A stretch of 64,000 nucleotides of DNA from Lacinutrix sp. C3R15 (lineage in GTDB: Bacteria > Bacteroidota > Bacteroidia > Flavobacteriales > Flavobacteriaceae), in contig NZ_JAHKPZ010000034.1 of NCBI RefSeq assembly GCF_018860825.1, positions 62,001 through 126,000 on the forward strand, in the 5' to 3' direction. The stretch's first letter is position 1, and every line of letters begins with the position of its first letter. The notes under the pieces are model-generated. The model made no database searches and was not told where the DNA came from. It saw only the letters and a program-made list of their open reading frames with translations. The position numbers were made by a program, and so were the translations under genes. Positions 38,452-52,683 of this stretch are shown here, piece by piece.

Positions 38452-38493
38452 ATTTAGTTTTTTACCTTTTACCTCAGGAAAGGGCTTAATTAT

Positions 38494-38625
38494 GCCTGAC
38501 ATGTTTGTGTGTGGTTAGTGGCACGTTTAAGCACCAAATTTAGCAAATACAAACCGAATAGAAAATCCGATAGGATTTTTGTAAGTAGGCTAGAACTAGC
38601 AATTAATTTTACACGAAGTTGTAGG
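38494..38625 (-). repeat. structured gene-end repeat 1
   Basis: Outer arms are TGTTTGTGTGTGG on one side and TTTTACACGAAGTTGTAGG on the other. The inner conserved blocks are AAATTTAGCAAATAC and GTAAGTAGGCTAGAACTAG. The central hairpin is AAAATCC gata GGATTTT (38562-38579). Relative to repeat 2 the hairpin stem sequence differs but pairing is kept. The arm includes the last codons and stop of the minus-strand gene at 38609. It marks the lower end of the array against the core exonuclease gene. Confidence 0.75.
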
Positions 38626-39316
38626 TAGTATATGCATCATTAAGAATCAAATTATTCTGATTTATAAACGATTCAATTTTTTTCATTGACTCTTTGGAAT
38701 AAATATAAAACCAAATTTGTCCAGAATAATGAAATGAAAAAACTGTTTTCAAAGTCTCTGAATAGAAAAAGTTGTTGCCGTAATAATTTGATTGAACCAA
38801 ATTGAAATAGTTGAGTAACATTTTTTCCAATTCAGAATAGTCAGAGACTAAAATTCCACCACTATAATTTGAGTCTCCGATAAACTTTTTAAAATTGGAA
38901 TAAGCAGTTTTTGTTGAAGGATGGTGACGTTCAATTTTTTCATGAAACCAAGGTAAATTAAACAAAGGAATGAAAGTATATTCAATCTTATTTTCTTTGG
39001 CAAATAACGTTAATATTTTACTCAAGTATACAATTTCATCTTCATCGGGAGGTGAGTCAATCACAATATTGCATATCATCTCAAAATCTTGTTTCTTAAT
39101 ATCGTCAGTGATTTTTTTAAATTCGTTAATTTCTTTATCTAATATTTCGTTCAATTCATTCTGCGAATAAAAGCGATCGGTGTCAGATTTTTCATCATAA
39201 TATTCACCTTCCTTTCTTGCAGCACTTTCAGAAGGATACCTTGTGTTTTGCCAGCCAGATATGAACGATGCAAATATTGGATCTTGAAGGACTTTTTTTC
39301 TGCTTAAATATTTCAT
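38609..39316 (-). CDS. hypothetical protein in repeat-bounded cassette
   Basis: 235 residues, soluble, without recognised motifs. There is an N-terminal basic segment (MKYLSRKKVLQDPIFASFIS), a Glu/Lys-rich helical region, then alpha/beta sequence (IEYTFIPLFNLPWFHEKIERHH). The final residues YTTYNFV and the stop are encoded by the arm of repeat 1. The start lies about 10 bp after repeat 2. One gene between two structured repeats is the cassette pattern seen along this array. The function is unknown. Confidence 0.6.
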   Translation of the reverse strand: MKYLSRKKVLQDPIFASFISGWQNTRYPSESAARKEGEYYDEKSDTDRFYSQNELNEILDKEINEFKKITDDIKKQDFEMICNIVIDSPPDEDEIVYLSKILTLFAKENKIEYTFIPLFNLPWFHEKIERHHPSTKTAYSNFKKFIGDSNYSGGILVSDYSELEKMLLNYFNLVQSNYYGNNFFYSETLKTVFSFHYSGQIWFYIYSKESMKKIESFINQNNLILNDAYTTYNFV

Positions 39317-39326
39317 CTATATATTA

Positions 39327-39464
39327 CCTACAACGGTTTTGTATATGATACGTTGCGTGTATGAGCAACTAATTTAGCAAATAAAAACTGAATAGAATAT
39401 TCCGCAGGAATATTCGTAAGTAGGCTAGAACTAGCAATTAATTTTACACGGTGTTGTGTGTAGT
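39327..39464 (-). repeat. structured gene-end repeat 2
   Basis: The best-preserved copy. It begins ACAACGGTTTTGTATATG, contains GCAACTAATTTAGCAAATAA, a perfect hairpin GAATATTCC gca GGAATATTC (39395-39415), GTAAGTAGGCTAGAAC, AGCAATTAATTTTACACGG and ends GTTGTG. ACAAC and GTTGT at the two ends can pair. It fills the gap between the SH3 gene stop (39466) and the next gene start (39316) almost completely. Confidence 0.85.
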
Positions 39465-39465
39465 G

Positions 39466-40641
39466 CTATTCCGCTAATTTAGTTCTCACTATTTTCCATT
39501 TCCCGTATTGATATTCTAAAATCAGTATTTGTTTCCATCTTCTTGAAGTGTGCAAAGGATCGCTTGCATAATAATCAGCAAAAACAACTGCTTGATCATC
39601 AAAAGCATTTTCAAGTCTTACTTCATAAATAGTAACATAATCAATTCCACCATAAGCATCAGTTGACGAAAACCATTTATAACCACCGTTTTTATTCCAG
39701 CTTGGATTATTAGTTAATGAAAATGCATTATAAAATTCTTCATTTCCTAAATGTTTTAAAAAACTCTTAACAACAGAGGTCGGGCTATCTTTTTGGTCGC
39801 TTTCGGTAATTTTATTATTAGATATTAGACTATTACTTAAAAACCCTATGAAAAATCCATCATCAACTTCTACTATAATTTTTGTCCAAGAGCTATAAGT
39901 TGAATTGTCAATTATTCGAATTTTTTCGTTCCGCTCAATTGTAGTTAGCACGTTTGTTATTGTTGTCGGTCCTAATCTCAAATTGGCTTTTCTTGCAGAA
40001 ACGTATTTACTTGGTAAAGCATAAATTTTTGAAACATCTATATCAAATATCTCATTTACTGTTGCTTTGTTGTCATCATTATCTGAAAATTTTTCTTCTG
40101 TGTTTTTTAGACTTTTCATTGAAGAATTTTCATTTATTGTAATATAATTTACATATCCAACTGTGCCGTTTGATATTACCTTATAAAACCCATTGTCATA
40201 TTCAATTACCTTAACACTACTACCTTTTTTTAATGGACGAATTGCGTCGTATTGTGATGGTGTTCTCCATAGTTGACCATAGGAACTTGTAGTAGTATAA
40301 ATGGTACTCGAATTATATGAACTGTTTGACGTACTCGATGATGTATTGTTATATGTTGTTTTAGGATAACTTGTAGTGGTAGTTGAATATGTGCTTGGTG
40401 TATAAGTTGAAGATGTATTATTGTCAGGTGTAATATATCCGGCTTGCCCTGTATATGGATTCGTATTTCCTCTCGTTGAGAAATTATCTCTATTTGTACT
40501 GTTAGGCGCAGTTCGATAATGAGGCTTTACATAAGTACCATTACTTCTATAATATCCACTAACATAAACGTGATTTGGATTTGTTTGCGCAAATGAAAAT
40601 AAGAATAGAAAGAAAAATAGAATTGTAAATACTTGTTTCAT
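39466..40641 (-). CDS. secreted protein with bacterial SH3-like domains
   Basis: 391 residues from the ATG at 40641, which begins the signal peptide MKQVFTILFFFLFLFSFAQ; a GTG 30 bp upstream lies within repeat 3. An N-terminal segment VSGYYRSNGTYVKPHYRT and NTNPYTGQAGY is a tail found on many flavobacterial secreted proteins. A Ser/Thr/Tyr-rich linker (~95-130) and two SH3-like modules follow (AIRPLKKGSSVKVIEYDNGFYKV; SARKANLRLGPTT). The C-terminal ~100 residues form an NTF2-like or DUF domain. It is probably periplasmic or surface-bound; the role is unknown. Confidence 0.7.
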   Translation of the reverse strand: MKQVFTILFFFLFLFSFAQTNPNHVYVSGYYRSNGTYVKPHYRTAPNSTNRDNFSTRGNTNPYTGQAGYITPDNNTSSTYTPSTYSTTTTSYPKTTYNNTSSSTSNSSYNSSTIYTTTSSYGQLWRTPSQYDAIRPLKKGSSVKVIEYDNGFYKVISNGTVGYVNYITINENSSMKSLKNTEEKFSDNDDNKATVNEIFDIDVSKIYALPSKYVSARKANLRLGPTTITNVLTTIERNEKIRIIDNSTYSSWTKIIVEVDDGFFIGFLSNSLISNNKITESDQKDSPTSVVKSFLKHLGNEEFYNAFSLTNNPSWNKNGGYKWFSSTDAYGGIDYVTIYEVRLENAFDDQAVVFADYYASDPLHTSRRWKQILILEYQYGKWKIVRTKLAE

Positions 40642-40666
40642 AATTTCATTTGTTTTTTTCGCATTA

Positions 40667-40869
40667 CACACAACGGTCTTGTATATGAAACGTAGCGTCT
40701 AAATAAACGCTAACTTTTCGGATTATGCACGAGCCAAATTTTTATTTTTTCTATTTATCTTTTAATTTTCTAAATATACAAAAATAAAAATTTGGTGGAC
40801 TTCGAAAATACACACAAACCTCTCGAAAGGCCTGTAATAGCTATGTTTTATATACGTTGTTGTGCATAG
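40667..40869 (-). repeat. structured gene-end repeat 3, long-hairpin variant
   Basis: The outer arms are those of repeat 2 (ACAACGG-TCTTGTATATGA at one end and TATATACGTTGTTGTG at the other), but the interior differs. It holds a perfect 16-bp hairpin, CCAAATTTTTATTTTT (40734-40749) against its complement at 40780-40795, with a 30-base AT-rich loop. It is therefore a subtype rather than a decayed copy. Confidence 0.7.
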
Positions 40870-40920
40870 TGCTTTTCACCTTCTGCTTGGTTTTCAGATG
40901 TTTTATTTCAGTTCGGAAGT

Positions 40921-41008
40921 GTGTGTTTGCAAGACATACTCTTTTACAATTTTTGGCGTAGCATTGGCTGTAGCGAATTGCAAATGTGTATGGCTTTCAG
41001 CGTTGGAA
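40921..41008. repeat. imperfect direct repeat, left flank of copper operon
   Basis: About 88 bp, with CTCTTTTA, AGCATTGGCT, GCAAA, ATGTG and AGCGTTGGA in the same order as at 44614-44699. It ends 9 bp before the multicopper oxidase stop codon. Copies on both sides of the copper genes suggest that these moved as one unit. Confidence 0.5.
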
Positions 41009-41017
41009 ATTAAGATG

Positions 41018-43237
41018 CTAATAGTTTAATGTTGCTCCAAATCCAATACCCATATCACTATCGTAATGTGTTGAAATCGCTATATTTCGAGTTGTGATAT
41101 ACTTAAATCCAGTCATATATTCCTTGTCAGTATTTACCATAAAAGCCCAACGTAATCTTGGTGTTAAAGGAATATCCTCTCGCATTAATTGAAAGCGTAC
41201 ATTTCCATCAGAAAATACTTCTCCTTGTAATTTTACAAGCATTGGCAACGTATATTCTGCTCCTAAACTCAAAACTGCTCGTTGGTCTTTTGTATTAGTT
41301 TGTCCAAAAAGATTTTTTTCAATTTCGCCATTTTGTTTTCTGTATCTCCAATCAAAACCAATAAATGGCATAAACCATTGGTTTTTTCCAATATATCGTC
41401 CAATGTGTGTTTCGGTTTCGTAACCGTGTCCATCGTGATAGCCTAAACTCCATTCCGTTCCAATACTCCAACGTGTATTTTGTAACATTGCCATTCCATC
41501 GTTTCCGTTTGTTGCAAAGTCATTTTCAATCATAAAATGAAATTTGTTACTTTCTGCTTGTAATTTTTTATAAGCCCATTTTTTATCTGGTAGATTTGGG
41601 TTTACGTAGTCACCTGTTGAAAATACTCTATTCATTCCAGCCATCATATGATATAAAATATGGCAATGAAAAAACCAATCGCCTTCAGCATTTGCTGAAA
41701 ACTCAATAGTATCGGTTTCCATTGGCATTATATCTAACACGTTTTTAAGTGGTGCATATTCTTCTTTCCCGTTCAACACTCTAAAATCTTGTCCGTGAAG
41801 ATGCATTGGATGTCGCATCATTGAATTGTTATAAAGTGTTATCCTAACATTTTCACCTTTCTTGATTAAAATTTTATCACTTTCTGAAAGTACTTTATTG
41901 TCCATACTCCAAACGTAACGGTTCATATTTCCAGTCAATTCAAATTGGATTTCTCTTACTGGTGCATCTTTTGGCAATGTTGTTGGCTGTGGTGCTTTTA
42001 ACATTCCATAATTTAAAGTTACAATATCTTGGTTTGTTTTCATTGAATGATTGGAATGGTCCATTTTGTCGTCCATTTTCATTTCAGAATTTCCAGTAAT
42101 TTCAGGATACATAACAGTATTCATATCCATTTTTTGTAACGACATATCCATTCCCATATCATCCATACTTCCGTCCATATTCATCATATCGTTCATCATT
42201 TTCATTCCTTCAAAATATTTTAGTTTTGGCATTCTGCTTTTAAGCTGAATTTTTCCATTTCCTAAATATATTGAAGCAGAATTTGTTCGGTCTTCTGGTG
42301 TTGCCAAAAACTCGTAAGCAATATCTTCGTTGGGAATTGTAACCACAACATCGTAAGTTTCTGAAACTCCAATAATTAATCTATCTACTTCTAAAGGTTC
42401 AACATCATTTCCATCATTGGCAACAACTGTCATTTTTCCACCTGCATAATTCAGCCAAAAATAGGACGAAGCTCCACCATTTGAAATGCGTAAACGCACT
42501 TTTTCTCCACCTTTAAATTGAGATAATTGACTTTCGTTTTTTCCGTTGATTAAAAACTTGTCGTAATAAACATCGCTTACATCCATTGCTAACATTCGTT
42601 TCATTTCATTACCTAATTTGGTTTTGAAATGCCCTGCTTTTATGGCTTCGGAATAACTTTGAACTGTTCCTTTTTTAATCGCAGACCAATCGTTTGCATT
42701 GTGCAACATTCGATGTACATTTTCGGGTTTAATATCTGTCCATTCGCTCAAAATTATCGGAACTTCTGGTAAATCGTCAATTCCTTTTCTAAACGTTGGG
42801 TCGTCTTTTTTCTTTAATAAAACTAATGAGCCATACATTCCAATTTGCTCTTGTAAACCACTATGACTGTGATACCAATGTGTTCCGCTTTGAATTATTG
42901 GAAAACGATAGGTAAATGTTTCGCTAGGTTCAATTGGCATTTGCGTTAAATACGGAACACCATCTTCTTTGTTTGGTAGAAAAAGTCCGTGCCAATGTAA
43001 AGAAGTACTTTCTTTTAATTTATTATGAACCACAATTTCCGCAATATCTCCTTCTGTAAAAGTCAATGTTGGCATCGGAATTTGTCCGTTTACAGCAATT
43101 GCTCTTTTTTCTTTACCAGAATAATTTACGATTGTATCTGTAATGGTTAAATCGTAATTGACAACATTTTGAGCATAAGCAAAATGACTTAACAGCATTC
43201 CAAAAAACGCTGTTAAGTTTAATTTTATATTTTTCAT
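41018..43237 (-). CDS. multicopper oxidase (CopA-like) fused to a CopB-like outer-membrane barrel
   Basis: 739 residues with signal peptide MKNIKLNLTAFFGMLLSHFAYA. The four copper-ligand motifs are present: HWHG (81-84), HWYHSHSG (from 120), HPMHLHGQDF and HCHILYHMMAGM. A Met/Asp-rich insert (EGMKMMNDMMNMDGSMDDMG) is typical of copper-binding CopA proteins. Residues ~590-739 look like amphipathic barrel strands (SIGTEWSLGYHDGHGYETE, FMPFIGFDWRYRK), resembling CopB. The protein would oxidise Cu(I) in the periplasm. It is the last gene of the copper operon. Confidence 0.85.
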   Translation of the reverse strand: MKNIKLNLTAFFGMLLSHFAYAQNVVNYDLTITDTIVNYSGKEKRAIAVNGQIPMPTLTFTEGDIAEIVVHNKLKESTSLHWHGLFLPNKEDGVPYLTQMPIEPSETFTYRFPIIQSGTHWYHSHSGLQEQIGMYGSLVLLKKKDDPTFRKGIDDLPEVPIILSEWTDIKPENVHRMLHNANDWSAIKKGTVQSYSEAIKAGHFKTKLGNEMKRMLAMDVSDVYYDKFLINGKNESQLSQFKGGEKVRLRISNGGASSYFWLNYAGGKMTVVANDGNDVEPLEVDRLIIGVSETYDVVVTIPNEDIAYEFLATPEDRTNSASIYLGNGKIQLKSRMPKLKYFEGMKMMNDMMNMDGSMDDMGMDMSLQKMDMNTVMYPEITGNSEMKMDDKMDHSNHSMKTNQDIVTLNYGMLKAPQPTTLPKDAPVREIQFELTGNMNRYVWSMDNKVLSESDKILIKKGENVRITLYNNSMMRHPMHLHGQDFRVLNGKEEYAPLKNVLDIMPMETDTIEFSANAEGDWFFHCHILYHMMAGMNRVFSTGDYVNPNLPDKKWAYKKLQAESNKFHFMIENDFATNGNDGMAMLQNTRWSIGTEWSLGYHDGHGYETETHIGRYIGKNQWFMPFIGFDWRYRKQNGEIEKNLFGQTNTKDQRAVLSLGAEYTLPMLVKLQGEVFSDGNVRFQLMREDIPLTPRLRWAFMVNTDKEYMTGFKYITTRNIAISTHYDSDMGIGFGATLNY

Positions 43238-43242
43238 TTTGA

Positions 43243-44106
43243 CTAATTTATTGTTTCAACAGTTTTACCACAACTCAACATCATTGAACCATAATAAGGG
43301 TTTTTTACTTCTTTTTCTTTGCTCAACCAGTTTGCACCTTTTCCATCATTTGCCATTGGACAATGTTGGTAATATGTTGGTGTTTCTTGTTTTGAAATTT
43401 TAATTAATTTATACATAGATTCAGAAAGTGAAATAAAAGATGCTCTTTGTTCTTTTGTGTCTTTTGAAGCTGAAATTGAAGTTGTTTCTGCTTTTAGGTT
43501 TTCTAAAACTTTCATCCAAACCATATGAACGTCCATTTTTAGAGTTTCCATTTTCACTTTATTAATTGCAGAAAGCAACTCTGTTGCTTTTGCTGATGCT
43601 GTATTTCCATCTGTTTTTACCAAAGCATCTTTTACAGAAAAATAAGTATCGAAAACTACTGAAAGTGTATTTGTCTCTTGCGTTTCGGTCATTTCGTCAG
43701 AATGCATAGAATGGTCTTTTGTTTCCATTTCCATTTTTGTTTCGTCCATTTTGGCAATTGTTTTTTCAGCTCTTTCGTATTGGCAACAACCTGCTAAATT
43801 AGAATAAGTGTCGTTTGGTGCTAAAAAAATATCGCTGTCATAACCTGCTAAAGCAATACGTTTTAATATTTTTTCTTTTGAAGTTTTCAAACTGTCGTAT
43901 GAAATAGTTGCCATTTTGGTTTCCTTGTCCCAATTTACAATAGATTGGTTTTTCAAATTTCCAGCTTTTTCAATTGTGCTTTTGCACATTCCACAATTAC
44001 CGTAGATTTTTACAGTTTCTGTTTTTTGATTTTTTGTTTGTGCATTACACGATGTGAATGATAACAATACAATGATTGCTACCAATATTTTTGATATTGA
44101 TTTCAT
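43243..44106 (-). CDS. copper-binding lipoprotein with HMA and DUF3347 domains
   Basis: 287 residues. The lipoprotein signal is MKSISKILVAIIVLLSFTSC. Residues ~30-95 form a heavy-metal-associated domain with CGMC in place of the usual MxCxxC (YGNCGMCKSTIEKAG). A His/Met-rich linker (KDHSMHSDEM) follows. Residues ~145-285 match DUF3347 (TETLKMDVHMVWMKV-like helices, YYQHCPMANDGKGANWLS and NPYYGSMMLSCG), a periplasmic copper-binding family. It probably hands copper to the oxidase, whose gene starts 5 bp downstream. Confidence 0.85.
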   Translation of the reverse strand: MKSISKILVAIIVLLSFTSCNAQTKNQKTETVKIYGNCGMCKSTIEKAGNLKNQSIVNWDKETKMATISYDSLKTSKEKILKRIALAGYDSDIFLAPNDTYSNLAGCCQYERAEKTIAKMDETKMEMETKDHSMHSDEMTETQETNTLSVVFDTYFSVKDALVKTDGNTASAKATELLSAINKVKMETLKMDVHMVWMKVLENLKAETTSISASKDTKEQRASFISLSESMYKLIKISKQETPTYYQHCPMANDGKGANWLSKEKEVKNPYYGSMMLSCGKTVETIN

Positions 44107-44196
44107 TTTATAAATTTTAAATTGTTGTAAAAACTAAAGAATACAAGCCGTAGGCTTGTTTTCAAAAAGACAGACCTTTGGCTGTCAAAAAGGTTT

Positions 44197-44565
44197 TTAG
44201 CTTATTTTTGGCGGTTGCCAAATGGAAAGATATACTGCTTTTGGTTTGTTTTGAACGTAAGTCCATTCGTTAACCAAAAGTTTGAAATTATTTGAATTAG
44301 AAAATTCAAAATCGTTGAATGAAACAGAAATGTTTACGACAATTGGGCAATGACAAGAAGTGTTGTCACAAGCACCATCACAACCATCATCGTCTTTTTC
44401 TCCCTTATCGCAACACGATTTTTTTTCAGAATGGTCGTCTTGTTTTTCGCAAGATGTTTTTTCAGTTTTTTCTTTGTCAGAAGTTTTTCCGCACGCAAAT
44501 GTTGTACTGGTTGGAATAACCAATAATATTAAAAAGAGGATTAATATTTGCGTTTTGTTTTTCAT
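44197..44565 (-). CDS. secreted Cys-rich metal-binding protein of the copper operon
   Basis: 122 residues with signal peptide (MKNKTQILILFLILLVIPTSTTFA). A highly charged stretch with eight or more Cys (TSCEKQDDHSEKKSCCDKG, GCDGACDNTSCHC, quoted in parts) looks like a metal-binding loop. The C-terminal half is strand-rich (IVVNISVSFNDFEF ... YLSIWQPPKIS). First gene of the copper operon, 90 bp before the HMA/DUF3347 gene. I do not recognise the family; metal binding is inferred from composition and neighbours. Confidence 0.6.
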   Translation of the reverse strand: MKNKTQILILFLILLVIPTSTTFACGKTSDKEKTEKTSCEKQDDHSEKKSCCDKGEKDDDGCDGACDNTSCHCPIVVNISVSFNDFEFSNSNNFKLLVNEWTYVQNKPKAVYLSIWQPPKIS

Positions 44566-44613
44566 AAAATTCTACAGCAAAGGTAATAAAAATTTCAATT
44601 GGTTTCTATTTTC

Positions 44614-44699
44614 GTGCCTCGGCAGAAACAGCTCTTTTATTTTTTAAGCATTGGCTTTTCGCGTTGGCAAAAAAATAAATGTGCTGTTTGAGCGTTGGA
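44614..44699. repeat. imperfect direct repeat, right flank of copper operon
   Basis: Matches 40921-41008 in the order GTG...GCA, CTCTTTTA, AGCATTGGCT, GCAAA, ATGTG and AGCGTTGGA, with small gaps. It lies 49 bp upstream of the first copper gene. Confidence 0.5.
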
Positions 44700-44747
44700 T
44701 TTTTCAGAACTAAATTTGATGGTTTGCACGATTTTCCGCATTATGCA

Positions 44748-45072
44748 CAACTAATTCATATAACTACAAAACCCATCGTTTAAAACCTTATGAAACCGCA
44801 TAAGTGTGTATTATATGTTTCTATATAAAATGTTATTTTAACTGGTTTAGGGTATAATTAATTAATAGCGAGAGCAATATAAAAAAATACTTTTTTTTAA
44901 CAATAAAAAAACATAAATATTTTCTTACAAAGAGAACGCTCTTGTTTTTAAGAATTAAAATATTTGTTTGTGCTTTACAACGGTAAGATGTTATACAATA
45001 GTAACACCATAAGCTCCACAAAAACACAAAAAAAGTCTTACAGATTAATGTAAGACTTGTAATAAATTATTT
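44748..45072 (-). repeat. long non-coding repeat R, copy A
   Basis: About 325 bp, roughly 90% identical by eye to 52250-52580. It starts CAACTAATTCATATAACTAC and ends after a terminator-like hairpin, AAGTCTTACA gattaa TGTAAGACTT (45033-45058). Differences include indels that break any shared reading frame, so the conservation is not for protein. Repeat 4 follows directly. Together with copy B it brackets five cassette genes. Confidence 0.8.
45033..45058 (-). terminator. terminator hairpin inside repeat R copy A
   Basis: AAGTCTTACA and TGTAAGACTT form a perfect 10-bp stem; on the minus strand a run of seven T follows. It would stop transcription entering from the SUKH-like gene. Confidence 0.7.
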
Positions 45073-45076
45073 TTTT

Positions 45077-45195
45077 AACGGTTTTGTATATGGTTACGCT
45101 CTTTATTTAGCAAATAAAACCAAATAGAAATTCCGATAGAATTTTAGTAAGTAAAACTGTAACTCGCAATAAATTATATACATTATTGCAGTTCG
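45077..45195 (-). repeat. structured gene-end repeat 4
   Basis: Starts AACGGTTTTGTATATGGTTACG, contains ATTTAGCAAATAAAACC, hairpin AAATTC cgata GAATTT (45128-45144), AGTAAGTAAAACTG and CGCAATAAATTATATAC. It ends at the stop codon of the SUKH-like gene (45199). The stem differs from other copies but remains paired. Confidence 0.7.
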
Positions 45196-45198
45196 TTT

Positions 45199-45900
45199 TT
45201 ATACGTTTTCAATTTCAAAAGCTTTTAAATCTAGTGTTACATGCGGAAGTATTTTTGGTAAAAATCGTTTTATTAATTCATGATATTCCGTCTTCTCTTT
45301 AAAGAGGTAACTGAGCTGCCAATAATGAAATCCCTTTGCTTGATAAGCCAGGTTTAAATATTCTTCTATGGTAATTTCCATATTATAAATAGCAGCTGCA
45401 TCAGTATGTACCAACCAAATATTATCAACTATTTCATCTCCTTCCCTTTTTAAACAAGCCGTTAGGCTCCAACAGATATCAAAAGGAAAGAAATCATCTT
45501 GGTTTTCTTCTTTATTAGATAAAGTATGGTAAAAAGCTTGGTCTCTGCAAAAATTTGGATTAAACAAATTTTCGGCCTTTGTTATATTTATAAATCCACT
45601 TAAATATTCATGTACAACTCCCCAAGTATAATTGTTGTTTAAATATTTTTCATTAAGAAACGTATCTTCTTTAAATTGTTTGGTGTTTTCTTCGGTTTGC
45701 TGCAATTCCCAAATAATCTCAACTCCAGAAGTTTGATTATATAAATCAAGAATGCTTTTAGGTAAATTAGCGTTATTATTAATAATTCCTTTTGGTGGAA
45801 ATGAATATGTAGCTGGTGTTTTAATATTTACTCCATGTTGAAAAGCATAGCCTATTTCTTGTAACATTCTGGTCAAAAAAACTTCATTTATATTAATCAT
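45199..45900 (-). CDS. SMI1/KNR4 (SUKH)-like protein
   Basis: 233 residues, soluble. The segment NNANLPKSILDLYNQTSGVEIIWEL resembles the SUKH N-terminal helix and strand (P-x-L-x-x-x-Y/F-x-x-x-x-G). The later region SLTACLKREGDEIVDNIWLVH and ITIEEYLNLAYQAKGFHYWQLSYLF fits the C-terminal part. SUKH proteins often act as immunity proteins to polymorphic toxins, but no toxin gene lies beside this one. Cassette gene between repeats 4 and 5. The family call is tentative. Confidence 0.5.
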   Translation of the reverse strand: MININEVFLTRMLQEIGYAFQHGVNIKTPATYSFPPKGIINNNANLPKSILDLYNQTSGVEIIWELQQTEENTKQFKEDTFLNEKYLNNNYTWGVVHEYLSGFINITKAENLFNPNFCRDQAFYHTLSNKEENQDDFFPFDICWSLTACLKREGDEIVDNIWLVHTDAAAIYNMEITIEEYLNLAYQAKGFHYWQLSYLFKEKTEYHELIKRFLPKILPHVTLDLKAFEIENV

Positions 45901-45961
45901 ACTTTTAACATTTAATTTATACCACTATAAAGTTTGGTTGGAGTTTATCTATTTTTAGTAA

Positions 45962-46057
45962 TCTACGTTGTTGTATTTGGTTTATTGCGCTGTTTAATCA
46001 CCTAATTTAGCAAATAAAACAGAATTGACATAGGTATAAGCAAAATCTCACTATATC
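45962..46057 (-). repeat. structured gene-end repeat 5 (degenerate)
   Basis: Carries the outer ACGTTGTTGTATTTGG and the inner CACCTAATTTAGCAAATAAAACAGAAT blocks in the right order. It lacks the central hairpin and the second half, ending at the stop codon of the ABC gene (46058). It looks like a truncated copy. Confidence 0.5.
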
Positions 46058-47293
46058 TTATTTTTGTATACCAACAGAACCCTTTGAAGAAGATTGAAGC
46101 GCAAAGGTAAAATTGGGATGTATATTAGGCTCATCACGATGTGATACAAACAAAATACTGGTATCACTTTCTTTTGCTATTTTGTTTATTAGTGCAGAAA
46201 TAAGTGCTGCACCTTGATCATCTACATTAATTAATGGTTCATCTAATATTAATAAAGGAGGATGCTTAATCATAGCTCTTGCTATTAATATTAAGCGTTG
46301 AATAGCTGGTGATAATTTAAGAAAAGAGGTGTTCTTTTCTTGATTTAAATTTAATACGTCTATCCACTGAGCAGCTGTATGTATTTGTGCCGTAGATGGT
46401 GATTGGTATAAGCCAATACTATCAAAAAAACCCGAAACAATCATTTGCTCTACGGTATAGCTTCTTTTAAATAATTCTAAAATAGCAGGGCTAATATATC
46501 CAATCTTCTGTTTTATATCCCAAACGCTTTCACCACTACCTTTTTTCTTACCAAAGAGATATACCTCTTGGCCATAAGCCTTGCTATTGTTACCATAAAT
46601 CATAGATAGTAACGTCGTTTTACCAGATCCATTAGGGCCAATTAAATGCCAAAACTCTTTTTTCTTAATGGTCCAGCTGATATCTTTTAAAATGGAACGA
46701 TTCTCATAATTTACATTTACATTTTTAAGCTCTACGAGCACTTCTGGAATATTTGTGTACTTTGTTATTGCCGCTGGTATATCTTTATCAAAAACAAACT
46801 CACTTCTTTTAAAATTATAATCTTCAATTGGCACTAATGCTTTGAGCTCCTCTCTTTCAAAGGTAATAATATGTGTAATTACTGGTAATAAATCATCCTG
46901 TCTGTTTAATATAAACACGAGAGGCATCTCTTTAGATAAAGTAATTAACTGTTGTTTTAATACAGCTACAGATTCTTTGTCTAGCGCTTCGTAAGGATTG
47001 TTTAATACTATAAAATCTGGGTTTTGTTGCAGTAAATAAGCTAACAATGCTTTTTTTTGTTCACCAGTAGATAATGTTCTGAGACTTCTGTTTATTTCTG
47101 ATGTTAACTCAAAATTATCGTGTTTTTCTTCCTCTTCAATATATTTTTCTAAAACGGAATTTGAAAATAAAACCCCTCGCTTTCCTTCTAATCCTGGTAA
47201 TTTATAGGTACCACTCAATAAATGAGATAACCAATACTCTTGTGGTGAACGTGTGGTATCTTCAATGGCATAATGTTGATGTGATGGTTTCAT
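46058..47293 (-). CDS. double-ABC ATPase, ModF-like, first half degenerate
   Basis: 411 residues. The second half has Walker A GPNGSGKTT, a degenerate signature (LKLSPAIQRLILIARAM), Walker B LLILDEP and the switch SHRDEP. The first half keeps a signature (LRTLSTGEQKKALLAYLL) and a changed Walker B (FIVLNNPYEALD), but its P-loop is missing: only ~60 residues precede the signature. There are no membrane helices. ModF/PhrA-type proteins have two complete halves of ~490 residues in total, so this one is shortened. The role is unknown; it may be a regulatory ATPase. Confidence 0.7.
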   Translation of the reverse strand: MKPSHQHYAIEDTTRSPQEYWLSHLLSGTYKLPGLEGKRGVLFSNSVLEKYIEEEEKHDNFELTSEINRSLRTLSTGEQKKALLAYLLQQNPDFIVLNNPYEALDKESVAVLKQQLITLSKEMPLVFILNRQDDLLPVITHIITFEREELKALVPIEDYNFKRSEFVFDKDIPAAITKYTNIPEVLVELKNVNVNYENRSILKDISWTIKKKEFWHLIGPNGSGKTTLLSMIYGNNSKAYGQEVYLFGKKKGSGESVWDIKQKIGYISPAILELFKRSYTVEQMIVSGFFDSIGLYQSPSTAQIHTAAQWIDVLNLNQEKNTSFLKLSPAIQRLILIARAMIKHPPLLILDEPLINVDDQGAALISALINKIAKESDTSILFVSHRDEPNIHPNFTFALQSSSKGSVGIQK

Positions 47294-47360
47294 TATTCTT
47301 GTTATAAGTGTTTTACCTTTGACTTATTCTTTAATTTATTTTTGTCTCACCTTTAAATAT

Positions 47361-47495
47361 GGCTACAGGTTATAATTGAATTTACGCTGCTAATTTATAT
47401 ACCATATTGGGTGTTTTAGACACTAAAACTAGCAAATACACAGGGATTTCTGAGAGAAAATTCCGTCGCAATAAACTATAGCCATTGTTAGCAAA
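47361..47495 (-). repeat. structured gene-end repeat 6 (degenerate)
   Basis: Contains GGCTACAGGTTATAATTG, TACGCTGCTAATTT, AAACTAGCAAATACACAGG, a weak hairpin around GGGATTTC and GAAAATTCC (~47443-47465), CGCAATAAACTATAGCC and GTTAGCAAACG. The order is the same as in the intact copies. It ends at the stop of the esterase-like gene (47500). Confidence 0.55.
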
Positions 47496-47499
47496 CGTT

Positions 47500-48642
47500 T
47501 TATTCTATTTCTTTTAAAATTTCCTTCTTTTGAGAATTGGTATAAAATTCTGATTGATTAAGATTTTTTATCAGCCTTTCTTTAGTTTGTTTAGTGTCTA
47601 ATTTTAGTTCTTCTTGAGCCCATATAATATTTAGATATCCTTCAGAATAGTTTGGGTATTCGGTTAAAAGAATTTCCCAAACCGTAATTGCTTTTTGATA
47701 TTGTTTGTCATTGTAAAATTCCCAACCTTTCCCATTTAAGATGCCAATTGATGGACGTAACTTTTCACCATAATGATTTTCAATATTTTTTGAAGCAATT
47801 TCTAATGCATTAATATTTTTATTGCTTATGTCAAAAAACAGGTGTACCTGTTTACTCCAATATTCAAAAACTTCGTAAATGGCTATTGGTGCTATTAAGC
47901 CTGGTGTTACATTATGATAAGCCTCTGGTAATAGAATTCCTTTTGCATTTATAAATTTATTATCTATTAATTTTAATGATTGTTCCATAATCTCAAATTC
48001 TTTGGGGAAATCATTTCCTATACCATATCTATAATACTTTGTTTGTTTTCCTTTATATGAATTGACTTTGATTATTGAGTCAGTGAGATTCATATTTTTT
48101 TGAGTAGTAAAAAATGGGCTCAACGAAATGACAGCATTTAGTTGATGTAGTCTTTTTTCAAATAAATAAGTAGTTAAATATCCATATCTTGAATGTCCAA
48201 TTAAAACTCTAAACTTACTTGCTTTATAATTTTTATCAATAAATGGAATTAATTCATTAAATATAAAAAGCTCATTCTCTTTAGCCTTACCTATAGAATT
48301 TGTTTTTTTATGTAGAGTCTCTTTTGTGCGCTTCATTTGTTGAGAGTTAACACTAACAATAATTGAAGCTGGCATTTGGTCATTAATAGTCAAATAATCA
48401 ATGGTGTTTATGATAAATTGATTACTTCTTTTATTCTGTCTGTCAAATATTATAGTTAAAGGATATTTTTTTTCGATATTTTGTTGCCAATCTTTTGGTA
48501 CAATTACAGAGATGCTTTTATTGTATCCTAAATAAGATGATGATATAGTTGTATCTGCAATCTTTTTGTAGCTTTCATAATTTTGAGAAAATATTTGAAT
48601 AGTACAAAAAAGGAATAATAGGATTAGTATTTTTTTTTGCAT
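47500..48642 (-). CDS. secreted esterase (D-type) with C-terminal TPR-like tail
   Basis: 380 residues with signal peptide MQKKILILLFLFCTIQIFS. The alpha/beta-hydrolase fold of the esterase D/Fes family is suggested by SISVIVPKDW, YPLTIIFDRQN, the nucleophile motif GHSRYG (Ser of GxSxG), and a late AYHNVTPG histidine. Residues ~300-380 are helical (GKGWEFYNDKQYQKAITVWEILL, a TPR-like hairpin). Such enzymes hydrolyse ester bonds in siderophores, carbohydrate esters or peptides. A single cassette gene between repeats 6 and 7. Confidence 0.72.
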   Translation of the reverse strand: MQKKILILLFLFCTIQIFSQNYESYKKIADTTISSSYLGYNKSISVIVPKDWQQNIEKKYPLTIIFDRQNKRSNQFIINTIDYLTINDQMPASIIVSVNSQQMKRTKETLHKKTNSIGKAKENELFIFNELIPFIDKNYKASKFRVLIGHSRYGYLTTYLFEKRLHQLNAVISLSPFFTTQKNMNLTDSIIKVNSYKGKQTKYYRYGIGNDFPKEFEIMEQSLKLIDNKFINAKGILLPEAYHNVTPGLIAPIAIYEVFEYWSKQVHLFFDISNKNINALEIASKNIENHYGEKLRPSIGILNGKGWEFYNDKQYQKAITVWEILLTEYPNYSEGYLNIIWAQEELKLDTKQTKERLIKNLNQSEFYTNSQKKEILKEIE

Positions 48643-48656
48643 AATTATTTTAATGT

Positions 48657-48792
48657 TTACAACGGTTTTGTGTATGATTCCGTTGCGTGTTTGAGCAACT
48701 AATTTAGCAAAAACAAACCGAATAGAATATTTCGCAGGAATATTCCTAAGTAGTCAAAAACAAGCAATTACTTTTACATGTTGTTAGCCAAA
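48657..48792 (-). repeat. structured gene-end repeat 7
   Basis: TTACAACGGTTTTGTGTATG, GAGCAACTAATTTAGCAAAA, a hairpin GAATATTTC gca GGAATATTC (48725-48745, one T-G wobble), CTAAGTAGTC, AAGCAATTACTTTTACATG and TTGTTAGCC. The distal arm encodes the last residues LANNM and stop of the permease gene. An intact copy. Confidence 0.8.
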
Positions 48793-50096
48793 GTTTTTTT
48801 ATGGGATGAAAACCTCCAAGCTCCAAATGCGAGTAGAATATAAATTATAATTATTGCTGCCATTTGTTGCCAATTGTTTGTCAATTCATAATATAGAATT
48901 AATATTCCACCAATACTCAATCCGATTATGGATAGTATTGTCAAAAAAGTTGATGAATTCGTTTTTTTTCGAATTTTAAAATTTGCAATTGCCATTAATA
49001 ATGAAACTAATAGAAAGGTAACACTCCCAAACTCAAGAATTAATTCTAATCCGCCAATTGAGATTAAAAGACAAGAAATTACTGCCATAGCAATAATTGC
49101 ATTTTGCGGACTGTTATTTTTTCGGATAGATAAAATTTTAGGAAAATATCCATCTTTAGCTATTACAGACATTTGACGAGAAGAGCCAAAAACTGTTCCA
49201 CTAATCGCACTACTTGTAGCCAAAATTGCACCAAATATAACAAGATTTGTACCTAATGAACCCAAAACATTTCCTGCACCTGATGCGAGAGCAAACTCTT
49301 TATTTTTAATGATTTCTTCTGTAGGTATCGCAAACAAAGCACCCATTGCAATGACTACATAAATTATGACAGCTAAAGAAATTGCGCTATAAATTGCTCT
49401 TGGTATGTTTTTTTCTGGATTAGTCATTTCGTTGACTGCATTAATTACTAATTGAAACCCTTCAAAAGCTACAAAAGTTAATGAAGAAACTATTAAAATT
49501 GAAAAAACACTTGATTGCTCTAAATCTGAAGCCATATTCTCAATGAATGTATTAAAATCAGTTGTTCCGTGGGTCATTAATACAATTGAGATAATTGTTA
49601 AAACTACAAGTTTGGTATAAACCATTAAATCTTCAATTTTTCCCATTCCATTTACGCTCCAAATGTTTATTAAAGTAAAAATTGCAATAACTCCAATTGC
49701 GACACCTTTTCTTATCCAAATATTATCAGCAAAGTTGGTACTACTAATTGCATAGGATGAAAATGTATAAGCATATAAAGCCAATGTACTTATGTAACCG
49801 AAAATAATAAACCAACCTATTGCAGAAGCAGAAAAATTTGATTTTGAATAGGTTTTTTTGAAAAAAGAATATGTAGCTCCTTCATCTTTGTAATAAAGCC
49901 CTAATTTTACATATGAATAAGCGGCTAATGCTGCAATTAGTCCACCAATAATTATTGCAAATGGTGTCAGGTTTCCAATTAACGAAACTGAAATTCCGAG
50001 TATTGTAAAAATTCCACCTCCAACCATTCCACCAAGAGCAATTGCAATTAATTCTGCTAAACCTAAATTCTTGTTTCTTCTCCTGTGTTGTGTCAT
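48774..50096 (-). CDS. APC-family amino-acid permease
   Basis: 440 residues with 12 membrane helices. The first helix region LAELIAIALGGMVGGGIFTILG has the glycine-rich unwound stretch of the APC superfamily, and VAFEGFQLVINAVNEMTNPEKNIPRAI is the family's helix 6/loop signature. It imports amino acids or amines by proton or exchange mechanisms; specificity is unknown. The last five codons fall inside repeat 7. It is a single cassette gene between repeats 7 and 8. Confidence 0.82.
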   Translation of the reverse strand: MTQHRRRNKNLGLAELIAIALGGMVGGGIFTILGISVSLIGNLTPFAIIIGGLIAALAAYSYVKLGLYYKDEGATYSFFKKTYSKSNFSASAIGWFIIFGYISTLALYAYTFSSYAISSTNFADNIWIRKGVAIGVIAIFTLINIWSVNGMGKIEDLMVYTKLVVLTIISIVLMTHGTTDFNTFIENMASDLEQSSVFSILIVSSLTFVAFEGFQLVINAVNEMTNPEKNIPRAIYSAISLAVIIYVVIAMGALFAIPTEEIIKNKEFALASGAGNVLGSLGTNLVIFGAILATSSAISGTVFGSSRQMSVIAKDGYFPKILSIRKNNSPQNAIIAMAVISCLLISIGGLELILEFGSVTFLLVSLLMAIANFKIRKKTNSSTFLTILSIIGLSIGGILILYYELTNNWQQMAAIIIIYILLAFGAWRFSSHKKTLANNM

Positions 50097-50108
50097 TTTC
50101 TAAAATTG

Positions 50109-50246
50109 GGCATAACGTGTTTGTATATGGTTTGTTGCGTGGTTTAAGCAACTAATTTAGTAAATAATTACCGACAAAGAAAGTCCGCGAGGACTTTCGT
50201 AAGTAGGCTAGAAGCCAGCAATAAATTATATACGGTGTTGCCAGTA
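50109..50246 (-). repeat. structured gene-end repeat 8
   Basis: CATAACGTGTTTGTATATGG, AAGCAACTAATTTAGTAAAT, a perfect hairpin GAAAGTCC gcga GGACTTTC (50179-50198), GTAAGTAGGCTAGAAGCC, AGCAATAAATTATATACGG and GTTGCC. Both stem halves differ from repeats 1, 2, 4 and 7 in a compensatory way. It lies between the OLD-like gene stop (50252) and the permease start (50096). Confidence 0.82.
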
Positions 50247-50251
50247 GTTTT

Positions 50252-52222
50252 TTATTTTGTGTAAAATTTCTCTATTTTCTCAATCCATTTTGGTTTGTGT
50301 TCAATATTTAATTCACAATAATTTTTGCAAATTAATTTTTTATTAGAATCGATAAAATCAACTATTTTATCTTTGATTCGATTTGGTTTTTTTCCTTCTT
50401 CAATTTTAGTTGGGTAAATTATAGAGTTATCTCCCTTTATATAACTATTTTTTGCTTCTTCATCAAATCCGAAATTTAAAAATTCCATTTTAATTTCCTC
50501 ATTTTCACTTTCGTTTATTGTTTTCTTTAAAGCTAGATAAAAAGCTTTGGGAATCATTGATTCCTCTATTTCAGTTGGATATTTTATGTCTGTCTCCAAC
50601 TTATGTAAAGTTATTTCTTGACTTTCTTCTACTTGAAGTCTTCTTATTTTAAGTAGATTTCCATTTAATTCAGTTGGAATATCTTGAGTACCTACACCTT
50701 GTATATCTGTGTCAATTAAGCAAAACACTCTACCTAATAATTCTTTTTTTTCTGCCTTATGAGAAATAGGTGTATATAGGTAATTATACAATAGTTTTAC
50801 TACTCCACATCCACCAACAGGAAGATATTTAATATTAATATTTGGGTCAATATGCTTGTTAATATAATTTTTATCTTCTTCACTCTCAACAATCATCCAG
50901 TTATTTTCTTTATTCCTTAGTGAGCTTATAATTGCTGAAGCTAAATCGAAAAAGCTTTTAAATTGAACATCATTAGGATGACTACCATTATCTTCAAAAT
51001 AATTTCTAAAAGAAAATTCAGAAATATTAGGTGCGGTGGATGAGTCAGATGGACTTATATGATATAAATTTCCTTTGTCAATTATTGGTAAAGCTCCGTA
51101 CCAATGAGAGGTTAAAAGCAGTTGAGTATCAAAGTTGTTAGCTAATTTTTCTAACCTGTCAAATTGTTCATAGCACATAGAGATATGTAATGAGGATTCA
51201 GGTTCATCAATTGCCAAAATAAATTTCTTATCTCTAATAGTATTTTGAGTTAAAAAAGCATAAGCAATATCAATTAATGCTTTTTTACGCTCTCCTGCAG
51301 AAAGGTTTTTTATAGGTTTTTCTCCTTTTTTCAACTTTCTTTTAGAAAAAAAAGTTTCAATCATTACATCTGTTAGATGATTCGCTGTAATTTTAGTTTT
51401 TTCTTTGAATTTTTTTTGAAAGTCGTAATCATTGTCAATTTCTTGTATAGTAGTTTCAACTTCTGATACAAAATTTTCTAAATCTGTATTGACAATATCT
51501 AAAATACTTTGACTTCGAGTTCTTCCTGCTTTTATAGGAAGCTTTTCATTTAAGGTTTTTTCAATTCTCTTTTTTACATTTTCACTCATTAAATCTTGCA
51601 TTCCTTTTGATTCTAGTCGTAAGAAGTCTTGAATTGATGTTTCAACAGGAATATATTGATATGCGAAATATTTTGAGATATCAGATTTTAGAGAATTAAT
51701 CAATTTATTATACTTTCTTTCGTCATTAAAATCTTCTAACTCTTGTAGTTTTTTCTTAATAGAAACATTGAAGGTGATGAATACTTCATCATTTCTTTCT
51801 GTTTGTCCCCAATTAGCTAATAAAAATAAGTAGTTATTTTCCTTATCTGATTCTAAGTTTTTTTGTTGTTTAAAAAAACTTTCATATTGTTTGTAGTTTG
51901 ATGATGGACTGTAATTTATGCTAAATAAAAACTCACTTATTATTGGAATTGCTTTTTGAGAGTTTTTTGAAAATTTTCTTAATAATTCGTCTTTAGGAAT
52001 GTAAAATAATGGTGCAACAAATGCTTCTGTCTTTTTTTCTGTTGTATGAAATATAAACTCTCGCTGATTGAAATACGTATCAAGAGCTTCTAATATTGAA
52101 CTTTTTCCAGCTCCATTTTGTCCAATAAAAAGATTTAGATTTTCAATTTGTTTAGTTCCAAAGGGAATGTAATTAGCTCCTTTGTAAACCTTATAATGTC
52201 TGAGGAATATTCCTATTATCAT
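50252..52222 (-). CDS. OLD-like ATPase/TOPRIM nuclease
   Basis: 656 residues. An ABC-type ATPase is split by a coiled insert: Walker A GQNGAGKSS (34-42), signature NLSAGERKKALIDIAYAF, Walker B FILAIDEPESSLH and LLTSHWYG. A TOPRIM domain follows (~430-560) with WMIVESEEDKNYI (Glu), VGGCG and FCLIDTDIQG (DxD). This is the layout of OLD-family nucleases, several of which act in phage exclusion (for example GajA, and P2 Old). No partner helicase lies beside it, so it would be a stand-alone class 1-type protein. First cassette below repeat R copy B. Confidence 0.8.
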   Translation of the reverse strand: MIIGIFLRHYKVYKGANYIPFGTKQIENLNLFIGQNGAGKSSILEALDTYFNQREFIFHTTEKKTEAFVAPLFYIPKDELLRKFSKNSQKAIPIISEFLFSINYSPSSNYKQYESFFKQQKNLESDKENNYLFLLANWGQTERNDEVFITFNVSIKKKLQELEDFNDERKYNKLINSLKSDISKYFAYQYIPVETSIQDFLRLESKGMQDLMSENVKKRIEKTLNEKLPIKAGRTRSQSILDIVNTDLENFVSEVETTIQEIDNDYDFQKKFKEKTKITANHLTDVMIETFFSKRKLKKGEKPIKNLSAGERKKALIDIAYAFLTQNTIRDKKFILAIDEPESSLHISMCYEQFDRLEKLANNFDTQLLLTSHWYGALPIIDKGNLYHISPSDSSTAPNISEFSFRNYFEDNGSHPNDVQFKSFFDLASAIISSLRNKENNWMIVESEEDKNYINKHIDPNINIKYLPVGGCGVVKLLYNYLYTPISHKAEKKELLGRVFCLIDTDIQGVGTQDIPTELNGNLLKIRRLQVEESQEITLHKLETDIKYPTEIEESMIPKAFYLALKKTINESENEEIKMEFLNFGFDEEAKNSYIKGDNSIIYPTKIEEGKKPNRIKDKIVDFIDSNKKLICKNYCELNIEHKPKWIEKIEKFYTK

Positions 52223-52249
52223 ATTGTGATATTTTTCTCAAATTACTGG

Positions 52250-52580
52250 CAACTAATTTATATAACTACAAAACCCATCGTTTAAAACCTTATAAAACCG
52301 CATAAGTGTGTATTATATGTTTCTTATCTAAAATGTTATTTTAACTAGTTTAGGGCATAATTAATTAATAGCGAGGGCAATATAAAAAAACACTTTTTTT
52401 TTAGCAAAAAAAACATAAATATTTTCTTACAAAGAAAACGTCCTTGCTTGCTATCTAGAATTAAAATTTTTGTTTGTGCTTTACAACGTTAAGATGTAAT
52501 ATAATAGTAACACCATAAGCTCCACAAAAACACAAAAAAAAGTCTCACAAATAAATGTAAGACTTGTAATAAATTATTAT
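52250..52580 (-). repeat. long non-coding repeat R, copy B
   Basis: About 331 bp, matching 44748-45072 nearly throughout: CTACAAAACCCATCGTTTAA, GCATAAGTGTGTATTATATG, TTAATTAATAGCGAG, TAACACCATAAGCTCCAC and the closing hairpin 52540-52565. It sits at the boundary between the desaturase gene (core) and the first cassette gene. Its position, at the promoter side of the array, is where an integron would carry its attI/Pc region; that comparison is inference. Confidence 0.8.
52540..52565 (-). terminator. terminator hairpin in repeat R copy B
   Basis: AAGTCTCACA aataaa TGTAAGACTT is a 10-bp stem with one mismatch and, on the minus strand, a following T-run. It lies 119 bp past the desaturase stop codon. 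Confidence 0.65.
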
Positions 52581-52683
52581 TTTTAAATTCCTCTTTCCTG
52601 CTACAAAAACAAGAGATTAAAGATTTATGGTAGTATGTATAAGTAAATTGAAGTGCTTTATAAAATAAGCCAGGTAATTAGCC

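Follow-up and report, generated by a model that had tools for sequence, protein, structure and literature searches.

A gene-cassette array in Lacinutrix sp. C3R15 as the probable cassette part of an integron-type platform outside the IntI family

The structured repeats found between 38.5 and 50.2 kb of a 64,000-nucleotide stretch of Lacinutrix sp. C3R15 (contig NZ_JAHKPZ010000034.1, positions 62,001 to 126,000; hereafter the window), together with the genes that they separate, represent with a probability of about 0.87 the cassette part of an integron-type platform that would work like an integron, a reading drawn from sequence comparison. The platform is not a member of the family defined by IntI; it may have had an independent origin, or it may share a very early common ancestor with the IntI integrons. 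The units of the array consist of one gene (once of three genes) and a structured 3′ element, all on a single strand. The initial annotation had proposed an integron-like array, a reading now supported by the complementarity of cassette ends, by covariation with a bottom-strand signature, by fixed junctions at C|GTT, by the absence of the array in congeners and by an integrase and attI-like site that head arrays in relatives; it is corrected in that an integrase candidate exists elsewhere in the genome and in that this candidate is not of the IntI family. The observation is thus confirmed, and it extends beyond what was first proposed.

Repeats and element models

The repeats are real, lie at the positions first noted and run, as had been described, on the minus strand like the genes. 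They were searched with a covariance model, R2, whose 36 source elements come from several genomes and include two window copies; it replaced an earlier model with automatic structure, R1, which located the elements and held their long-range stem incompletely. Of the eight listed window copies, R2 recovers all but one (E 1.8e-23 to 0.0014). Of the two copies regarded as degenerate, that at 47361 is matched by R2 (E 0.0014), and that at 45962 is the right half only, found by R1 (E 0.017) and absent from the R2 match list. The repeats cannot be attributed to chance, since the genome (3.6 Mb, 42 contigs) contains 35 blastn matches at E≤0.01 and a two-motif scan, trained on the very loci on which it was scored, detects 215 elements across array loci totalling 548 kb, versus none after shuffling in two-base blocks. 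Small contigs of the same genome, such as C17, C19, C26 and C33, carry at least two elements each in the same direction. Sufficient flank was available for 211 of the 215 elements, from which 175 (core length 118–132) were used for covariation and 36 for R2; likewise, 128 of 164 cassettes had exact GTT and AAC anchors, and 106 of these were used for folding.

Cassette ends complement each other

When the minus strand is read, the bases past the GTT of one element are an inverted match to the bases preceding the next AAC; in the window, this is seen in the units with the genes at 38609–39316 and 39466–40671 and in the copper and ATPase units, and partially in the permease unit. A perfect match at six of six positions (+3 to +8) between the start of a cassette and its own end occurs in 112 of 128 cassettes, versus 42 of 1514 comparisons between different cassettes of the same locus; over the 164 cassettes, the match at these positions amounts to 75–84% within a cassette and to 26–54% within an element, the latter being like the shuffled control. 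Such complementarity between own start and own end is expected if the site is completed in the circular cassette, and an inserted repeat predicts none of it. The stem formed by the cassette ends has the same A.C position seen in the elements, at +10, in 107 of 128 cases. The consensus core sites RYYYAAC and GTTRRRY are present in 9 and 8 of the 128 rows, respectively, rows that had been chosen for AAC and GTT.

A generic scan for start/end pairs, independent of the two-motif model, was at or near chance in L101, L102, L105, L115, L129, L133 and L135, and for this reason the reach of the system beyond the Flavobacteriaceae rests on attI-like sites and covariance-model hits; the opposite-strand column of that scan is equal by symmetry and hence no test. 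Downstream of the integrase of L113 (Rufibacter), cassette-like start/end pairs about 56 nt apart are seen in two places, a spacing that would mean sites much shorter than the flavobacterial ones.

Fold, covariation and strand

In the 175 aligned elements, the true long-range register pairs 80% of the cells of the top strand, versus 26–39% in shifted registers and at most 62% in 200 permutations; changes on both sides affect 13 of the 16 stem pairs (at most 12 in permutations). In the 36 elements, 14 pairs are 89.8% paired and 12 are changed on both sides, with 0 of 500 shuffles as high and slid registers at 24–44%, the structure used for this count being derived from a wider set containing those rows. 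Covariation without significance, an outcome that would have spoken against the first reading, was thus not what the test gave: the statistical signal (0/500 shuffles) sits in the long-range stem, which had not been described, and the central hairpin, changing and yet paired between copies, is visible by eye.

Two stem positions are nearly always A.C (154 and 160 of 175), equivalent to G.T on the other strand. When A.C is scored as a pair, as on the bottom strand, 95% of the cells are paired, versus 29–45% in slid registers. The true register holds 434 A.C and 17 G.T cells, or 120 and 17 once the two near-invariant columns are set aside, with L090 contributing 10 of the 17 G.T cells; A.C makes up about three quarters of its non-Watson-Crick cells. 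Within the constant register of the 16-position stem, no single unpaired (extrahelical) base was found, and the two conserved A.C positions are located there. Under DNA energies in the circular form, the bottom strand is the stabler one in 104 of 106 cassettes (one tie), with a mean of -29.0 versus -24.3 kcal/mol, and in windows of the cassette bodies it is stabler in 44 of 150. By this computed preference, the folded bottom strand would be the candidate substrate.

The integrase and the attI-like site

Six tyrosine recombinase matches are present in the genome, and the three that were scanned correspond to an XerD-like protein, an XerC-like protein and a protein of 381 aa encoded outside the window (contig C35, 546426–547568). 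The latter is the candidate integrase, with relatives that head arrays, so that the absence of a visible integrase, as first reported, is true for the window and false for the genome; the co-occurring tyrosine recombinase that had been suggested as a target of search is represented by this candidate. The 3′ flank of its gene ends in GTATATAAACTAGTTACCAAAAATAGCGTAACA, and GTTACCAAAAATAGCGTAACA is also found after an element on contig C29.

The candidate carries an extra N-terminal domain with a weak resemblance to HARP/XPB domains (Pfam PF07443). It scores 191.5 bits against TIGR02249 (IntI), below the cut-off of 265, and its best NCBIfam match, NF040815, reaches 208.2 bits, also below the curated cut-off of 220; XerA (5hxy) is the best solved relative by sequence. 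The residues between the catalytic R and HxxR number 88–89 in 22 of 22 family members, versus 130 in 12 of 12 IntI, and the counterpart of residues 202–247 of VchIntIA is absent; in XerC, XerD and 14 other recombinases, 88–95 residues are found, which makes the lack of an insertion the usual state. The alignment (A5) includes 22 of 30 loci, the others being short, truncated, odd or not found. In a midpoint-rooted FastTree phylogeny, the 12 IntI are monophyletic (support 1.0), and the integrase family and its homologues (38 sequences) are separate from them (support 0.84). As judged from alignment and tree, the integrase is not of the IntI family, as it lacks the IntI insertion, falls outside the IntI clade and has an extra N-terminal domain.

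The relatives show the integrase first, then an attI-like site (about ATATAACnAGTT) and then the same-strand cassettes. Twenty 3′ flanks were fetched, and an attI-like site of the approximate form ATATAACnA|GTT is visible by eye between the integrase and the first cassette in 17 of them (the exceptions being L088, L096 and L097). An exact 7/7 pair for the first cassette, with GTT at most 330 nt from the integrase and the partner before the downstream AAC, occurs in 25 of 39 flanks. In the 18 loci extending over more than 6 kb, all 182 elements are on the strand of the integrase, a count that tests strand and not side because these loci cover almost solely the region 3′ of the integrase. Side was addressed in 15 of the 82 named loci, on which R2 was run, most of them with up to 10 kb of upstream sequence; these include Algibacter (a genome that also supplied one of the 18 loci of the strand test), Winogradskyella, Seonamhaeicola, Algoriphagus, Rufibacter, Aquiflexum, a Sphingobacteriales metagenome-assembled genome and a Chryseobacterium plasmid. 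All 46 R2 hits obtained there lie downstream (3′) of the integrase and share its strand; they come from 12 of the 15 loci, L105, L115 and L199 having none. A looser two-motif scan of 38 named loci detected elements downstream in nine of them and upstream in none.

Junctions and turnover of cassettes

The junctions were read in locus L092 of genome G014, where a unit of gene and element, about 560 bp long, occurs at four places in one array, three copies being nearly identical (560, 561 and 560 bp) and the fourth showing 96–97% identity over its gene. Agreement between the copies runs from C|GTT to C|GTT; beyond the left edge, one base agrees in two of three comparisons and eight in the third, and to the right of the closing GTT the agreement is of 0 or 1 base. 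Single cassettes are also common to three genera with differing neighbours (L083, L088 and L090), and not in the conserved order that would have spoken against the first reading; the percent values for unrelated flanks in these comparisons are artefacts of free end gaps and serve as contrast only. The stretch 38452–52683 of the window is absent in three of three congeners whose sequence covered the conserved genes on both flanks (their proteins 81–91% identical), and an element search in those three loci found none; three further congener stretches contained one flank only.

Distribution and cassette content

R2, the covariance model, detects elements in 133 of 149 genomes of the Flavobacteriaceae, with counts that saturate because at most 23 candidates were scored per genome. 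The 16 element-free genomes are mostly small (15 of 1.3–2.8 Mb and one of 4.2 Mb). Integrase relatives at E≤1e-50 are present in 98 of the 149 genomes, and 51 of the 119 genomes sampled from the class match the integrase profile at E≤1e-90, with some matches lacking the N-terminal domain in both sets. Among plasmids, 82 records match the integrase, eight of them covering at least 80% of the query. One Chryseobacterium plasmid (L198) shows the integrase followed by mostly same-strand small genes with four R2 hits, and another (L199) has the integrase family and no R2 hit. TIGR02249 matches at E≤1e-50 occur in 58 of 198 sampled genomes of the phylum, none of the same family or order, although the sample included no fewer than 18 further genomes from the family. 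In 57 of the 198, IntI is above the cut-off (loci L186–L197), and only one of the 58 matching genomes belongs to this class.

Of the 140 cassettes with an open reading frame (ORF) of at least 60 aa, 136 have it on the element strand, and in 117 of these its stop is at most 40 nt from AAC; 24 of 164 cassettes are without such an ORF. The cassette genes of the window are diverse (permease, esterase, copper genes, ATPases), and others encode a rhomboid protein, a short-chain dehydrogenase, a hydrolase, a restriction enzyme and a STAND ATPase. Pfam was run on 10 of 34 listed cassette ORFs, four of which had no match or solely a domain of unknown function; by Pfam, the cassette genes look functionally unrelated, as first supposed.

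The array of the window

All features of the array are on the minus strand. From its head, it opens with a leader (52250–52583) that has the attI-like end TATATAAATTAGTT, assigned from the similarity of its 3′ end to the attI-like sites of relatives and to the sequence 3′ of the integrase gene in the same genome, and the first cassette begins GTTGCCAGTAAT. The gene of this cassette (50252–52222) encodes an AAA_15/AAA_21 ATPase of 656 aa, in a unit with the start GTTGCCAGTA and the end TACTGGCAAC, and precedes the attC-like element C8 (50114–50239; R2 111.6 bits, E 1.8e-23). An amino acid permease gene (440 aa, 48774–50096; start/end match partial) with element C7 (48661–48785; R2 86.9 bits) and a putative esterase gene (380 aa, 47500–48642) with the degenerate element C6 (47356–47489; R2 25.1 bits, E 0.0014) come next. 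The ABC transporter ATPase gene that follows (411 aa, 46058–47293) is flanked by two degenerate elements, C6 and the half element C5 (45960–46067, right half only; R1 E 0.017), and beyond it are a cassette gene for a 233-aa protein without a Pfam match (45199–45900) and element C4 (45077–45187; R2 58.2 bits).

At this point a second leader with an attI-like end is found (44748–45076; 91% identical to 52250–52583), and the following unit begins GTTGTGCATAATGC. This copper unit (41018–44565; end GCACTATGCACAAC) encodes a multicopper oxidase, a DUF3347 protein and a small protein, and it is closed by element C3 (40672–40861; R2 50.7 bits), with a long apical part; the three-gene group of about 3.9 kb has matching ends and acts like one cassette, far longer than the usual unit. 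The array continues with a gene for an SH3_3 domain protein (39466–40671; unit start GTTGTGTGTAATGC, end GCACTACACACAAC), element C2 (39332–39455; R2 94.6 bits), a gene for a 235-aa protein without a Pfam match (38609–39316; unit start GTTGTAGGTAATAT, end ATACTACCTACAAC) and element C1 (38498–38620; R2 62.5 bits), the final one, whose 3′ GTT is degenerate.

The two copies of the leader, about 330 bp long, are the only full-length ones in the genome; it opens with a hairpin that, together with the T run after it, resembles a terminator by eye, and closes with the attI-like site. Because it occurs twice, each time with an attI-like end, the window may contain two array heads in tandem. The array appears to be a detached one, with attI-like heads and no adjoining integrase.

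Proposed mechanism and alternative explanations

In the proposed mechanism, the tyrosine recombinase would bind the element as a folded single strand, namely its bottom strand, and would cut at GTT; a circular cassette would be inserted beside the GTT of attI, or excised between two elements. The N-terminal domain may aid the recognition of the folded site, replacing the IntI-specific insertion.

Several observations weigh against this interpretation, whose support is wholly comparative. Before refinement, the ends of blastn pairs fell 0–5 bases from GTT in both copies in 18 of 76 pairs; this first breakpoint test was blurred by the conservation of the element arms and is superseded by the base-level reading of repeated cassettes. 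An excess of A.C over G.T is also present in slid registers (303 to 8 and 439 to 241), a consequence of the low G content of the arms, so that the ratio by itself says little. Base composition alone favors the bottom strand in 235 of 318 shuffles and thus, compared with 104 of 106 real cassettes, explains part of the strand signal and not all of it. The genome's own integrase is located 112 bp from a contig end, where its readable flank stops; 14 of 39 flanks are without an exact start/end pair, and the displaced-position control is unclean (10/30 versus 19/30) because other cassettes start there. The strand count in 18 loci, as said, has no bearing on side; the looser two-motif scan gave two opposite-strand elements in L132, and 2 of 129 R1 hits are on the opposite strand (E 0.32 and 0.84), both overlapping a same-strand element. 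Finally, the co-occurrence that favors the interpretation, with an integrase match in 96 of 133 genomes with elements versus 2 of 16 without, has a Fisher p of 5e-6 that ignores phylogeny, and 37 of the 133 element-bearing genomes have no match at E≤1e-50.

These 37 genomes, together with the XerC- and XerD-like proteins of the genome, speak for the alternative that survives best, in which the elements are recombination sites served by a different recombinase, XerC/XerD or some other, the linked integrase just travelling along. This is nevertheless improbable, since elements follow the linked integrase on its strand wherever the 3′ flank was read, mostly behind an attI-like site, and the integrase family extends across the class.

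Slightly less probable still is a classical IntI integron without its integrase (cluster of attC sites lacking integron-integrases, CALIN), with attC sites that have merely diverged. The layout is the same, and AAC and GTT ends, an asymmetric spacer and a fold that by computation favors the bottom strand agree with it; against this, the family and order yielded no TIGR02249 match among the 58 matching genomes of the phylum sample, the family-wide integrase is below the IntI cut-off, without the insertion and outside the IntI clade, and GTTRRRY is kept in just 8 of 128 rows. A miniature transposon or repeats of the repetitive extragenic palindromic (REP) type, placed at gene ends with immobile genes between them, merit a similarly small share of belief: conserved ends, many dispersed copies and proximity to stop codons agree with them, but the variable flanks match within the gene unit and not within the element, gene and element are duplicated as one sharp-ended unit, and elements follow an integrase with their orientation kept. 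Transcribed RNA structures (terminators or stability elements), for which the DNA fold would be irrelevant, account for structured elements 3′ of genes and are the least credible of all, as the transcript corresponds to the top strand, where the conserved A.C is unpaired while G.T pairs on the bottom strand only, as Rfam at the gathering threshold gave zero matches in the 64-kb window, and as the cassette-level complementarity is left unexplained.

The integron-type interpretation is accordingly retained, and a wider version of it appears moderately probable, namely that the Bacteroidota have a second integron lineage, in which an XerA-like recombinase that gained a structure-specific HARP/XPB-type DNA-binding domain reads folded single-stranded cassette ends and chooses the strand by G.T/A.C positions and not by extrahelical bases, and through which flavobacteria and other bacteria would exchange many of their single genes, plasmids included.

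Comparison with known systems

The usual way to detect integrons is by IntI and its attC sites. A literature search by title and abstract retrieved no description of the integrase-attI-cassette system, preprints and most subscription journals being outside its scope and an earlier description being possible. According to the IntegronFinder 2.0 report, In0 alone was previously known from Bacteroidetes, to which one complete integron, from Salinibacter ruber, is added (PMC9024848), and a review includes the Bacteroidota among the phyla with integrons (PMC8618304). If the present interpretation is true, much of the single-gene turnover in these bacteria (133/149 genomes of the family by elements, 51/119 of the class by integrase) would be site-specific and overlooked.

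A parallel in uptake comes from Riemerella anatipestifer, in which, according to one section of the report, a gene flanked by 27 bp of 5′ and 140 bp of 3′ DNA enters the genome at a specific site by natural transformation, no flanking homology being needed, and the 3′ fold is called attC-like by the authors; the section names no integrase or attI (PMC13148043). This homology-independent uptake may be the same system, and the present integrase is a candidate for the enzyme left unnamed in that section (PMC13148043).

Regarding the recombinase, archaeal XerA and the NF040815 family, 'site-specific tyrosine recombinase/integron integrase', are the nearest by sequence (5hxy, 208.2 bits), and the NF040815 name is applied by NCBI to a plasmid member of the integrase family. 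The present integrase differs from them in being below the cut-off, in its extra N-terminal domain and in its link to attI-like sites and cassette arrays.

In attC sites as described for known integrons, recombination uses the folded bottom strand, nothing but AAC and GTT is common to all sites, and pairing can continue past the R boxes (PMC2727003). The likeness of the present system to IntI integrons includes single-gene same-strand cassettes, a head formed by integrase and attI, AAC and GTT ends, complementarity between cassette start and end, an asymmetric central spacer and a hairpin that by computation favors the bottom strand. Most IntI integrons have the integrase opposite in direction to the cassettes, whereas in the present relatives it runs in the cassette direction. 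Further differences are an integrase without the additional domain of IntI, outside the IntI clade and with an extra N-terminal domain; elements that rarely keep GTTRRRY/RYYYAAC; and a covarying stem with conserved A.C (G.T on the bottom strand) in whose constant register no extrahelical base was seen. If true, this would be a second, separate solution for recombining folded single-stranded DNA, and the needs of the chemistry would become comparable between the two. In summary, the comparison points to a parallel to IntI integrons, and what appears to be new is a platform of the integron kind with a non-IntI integrase.

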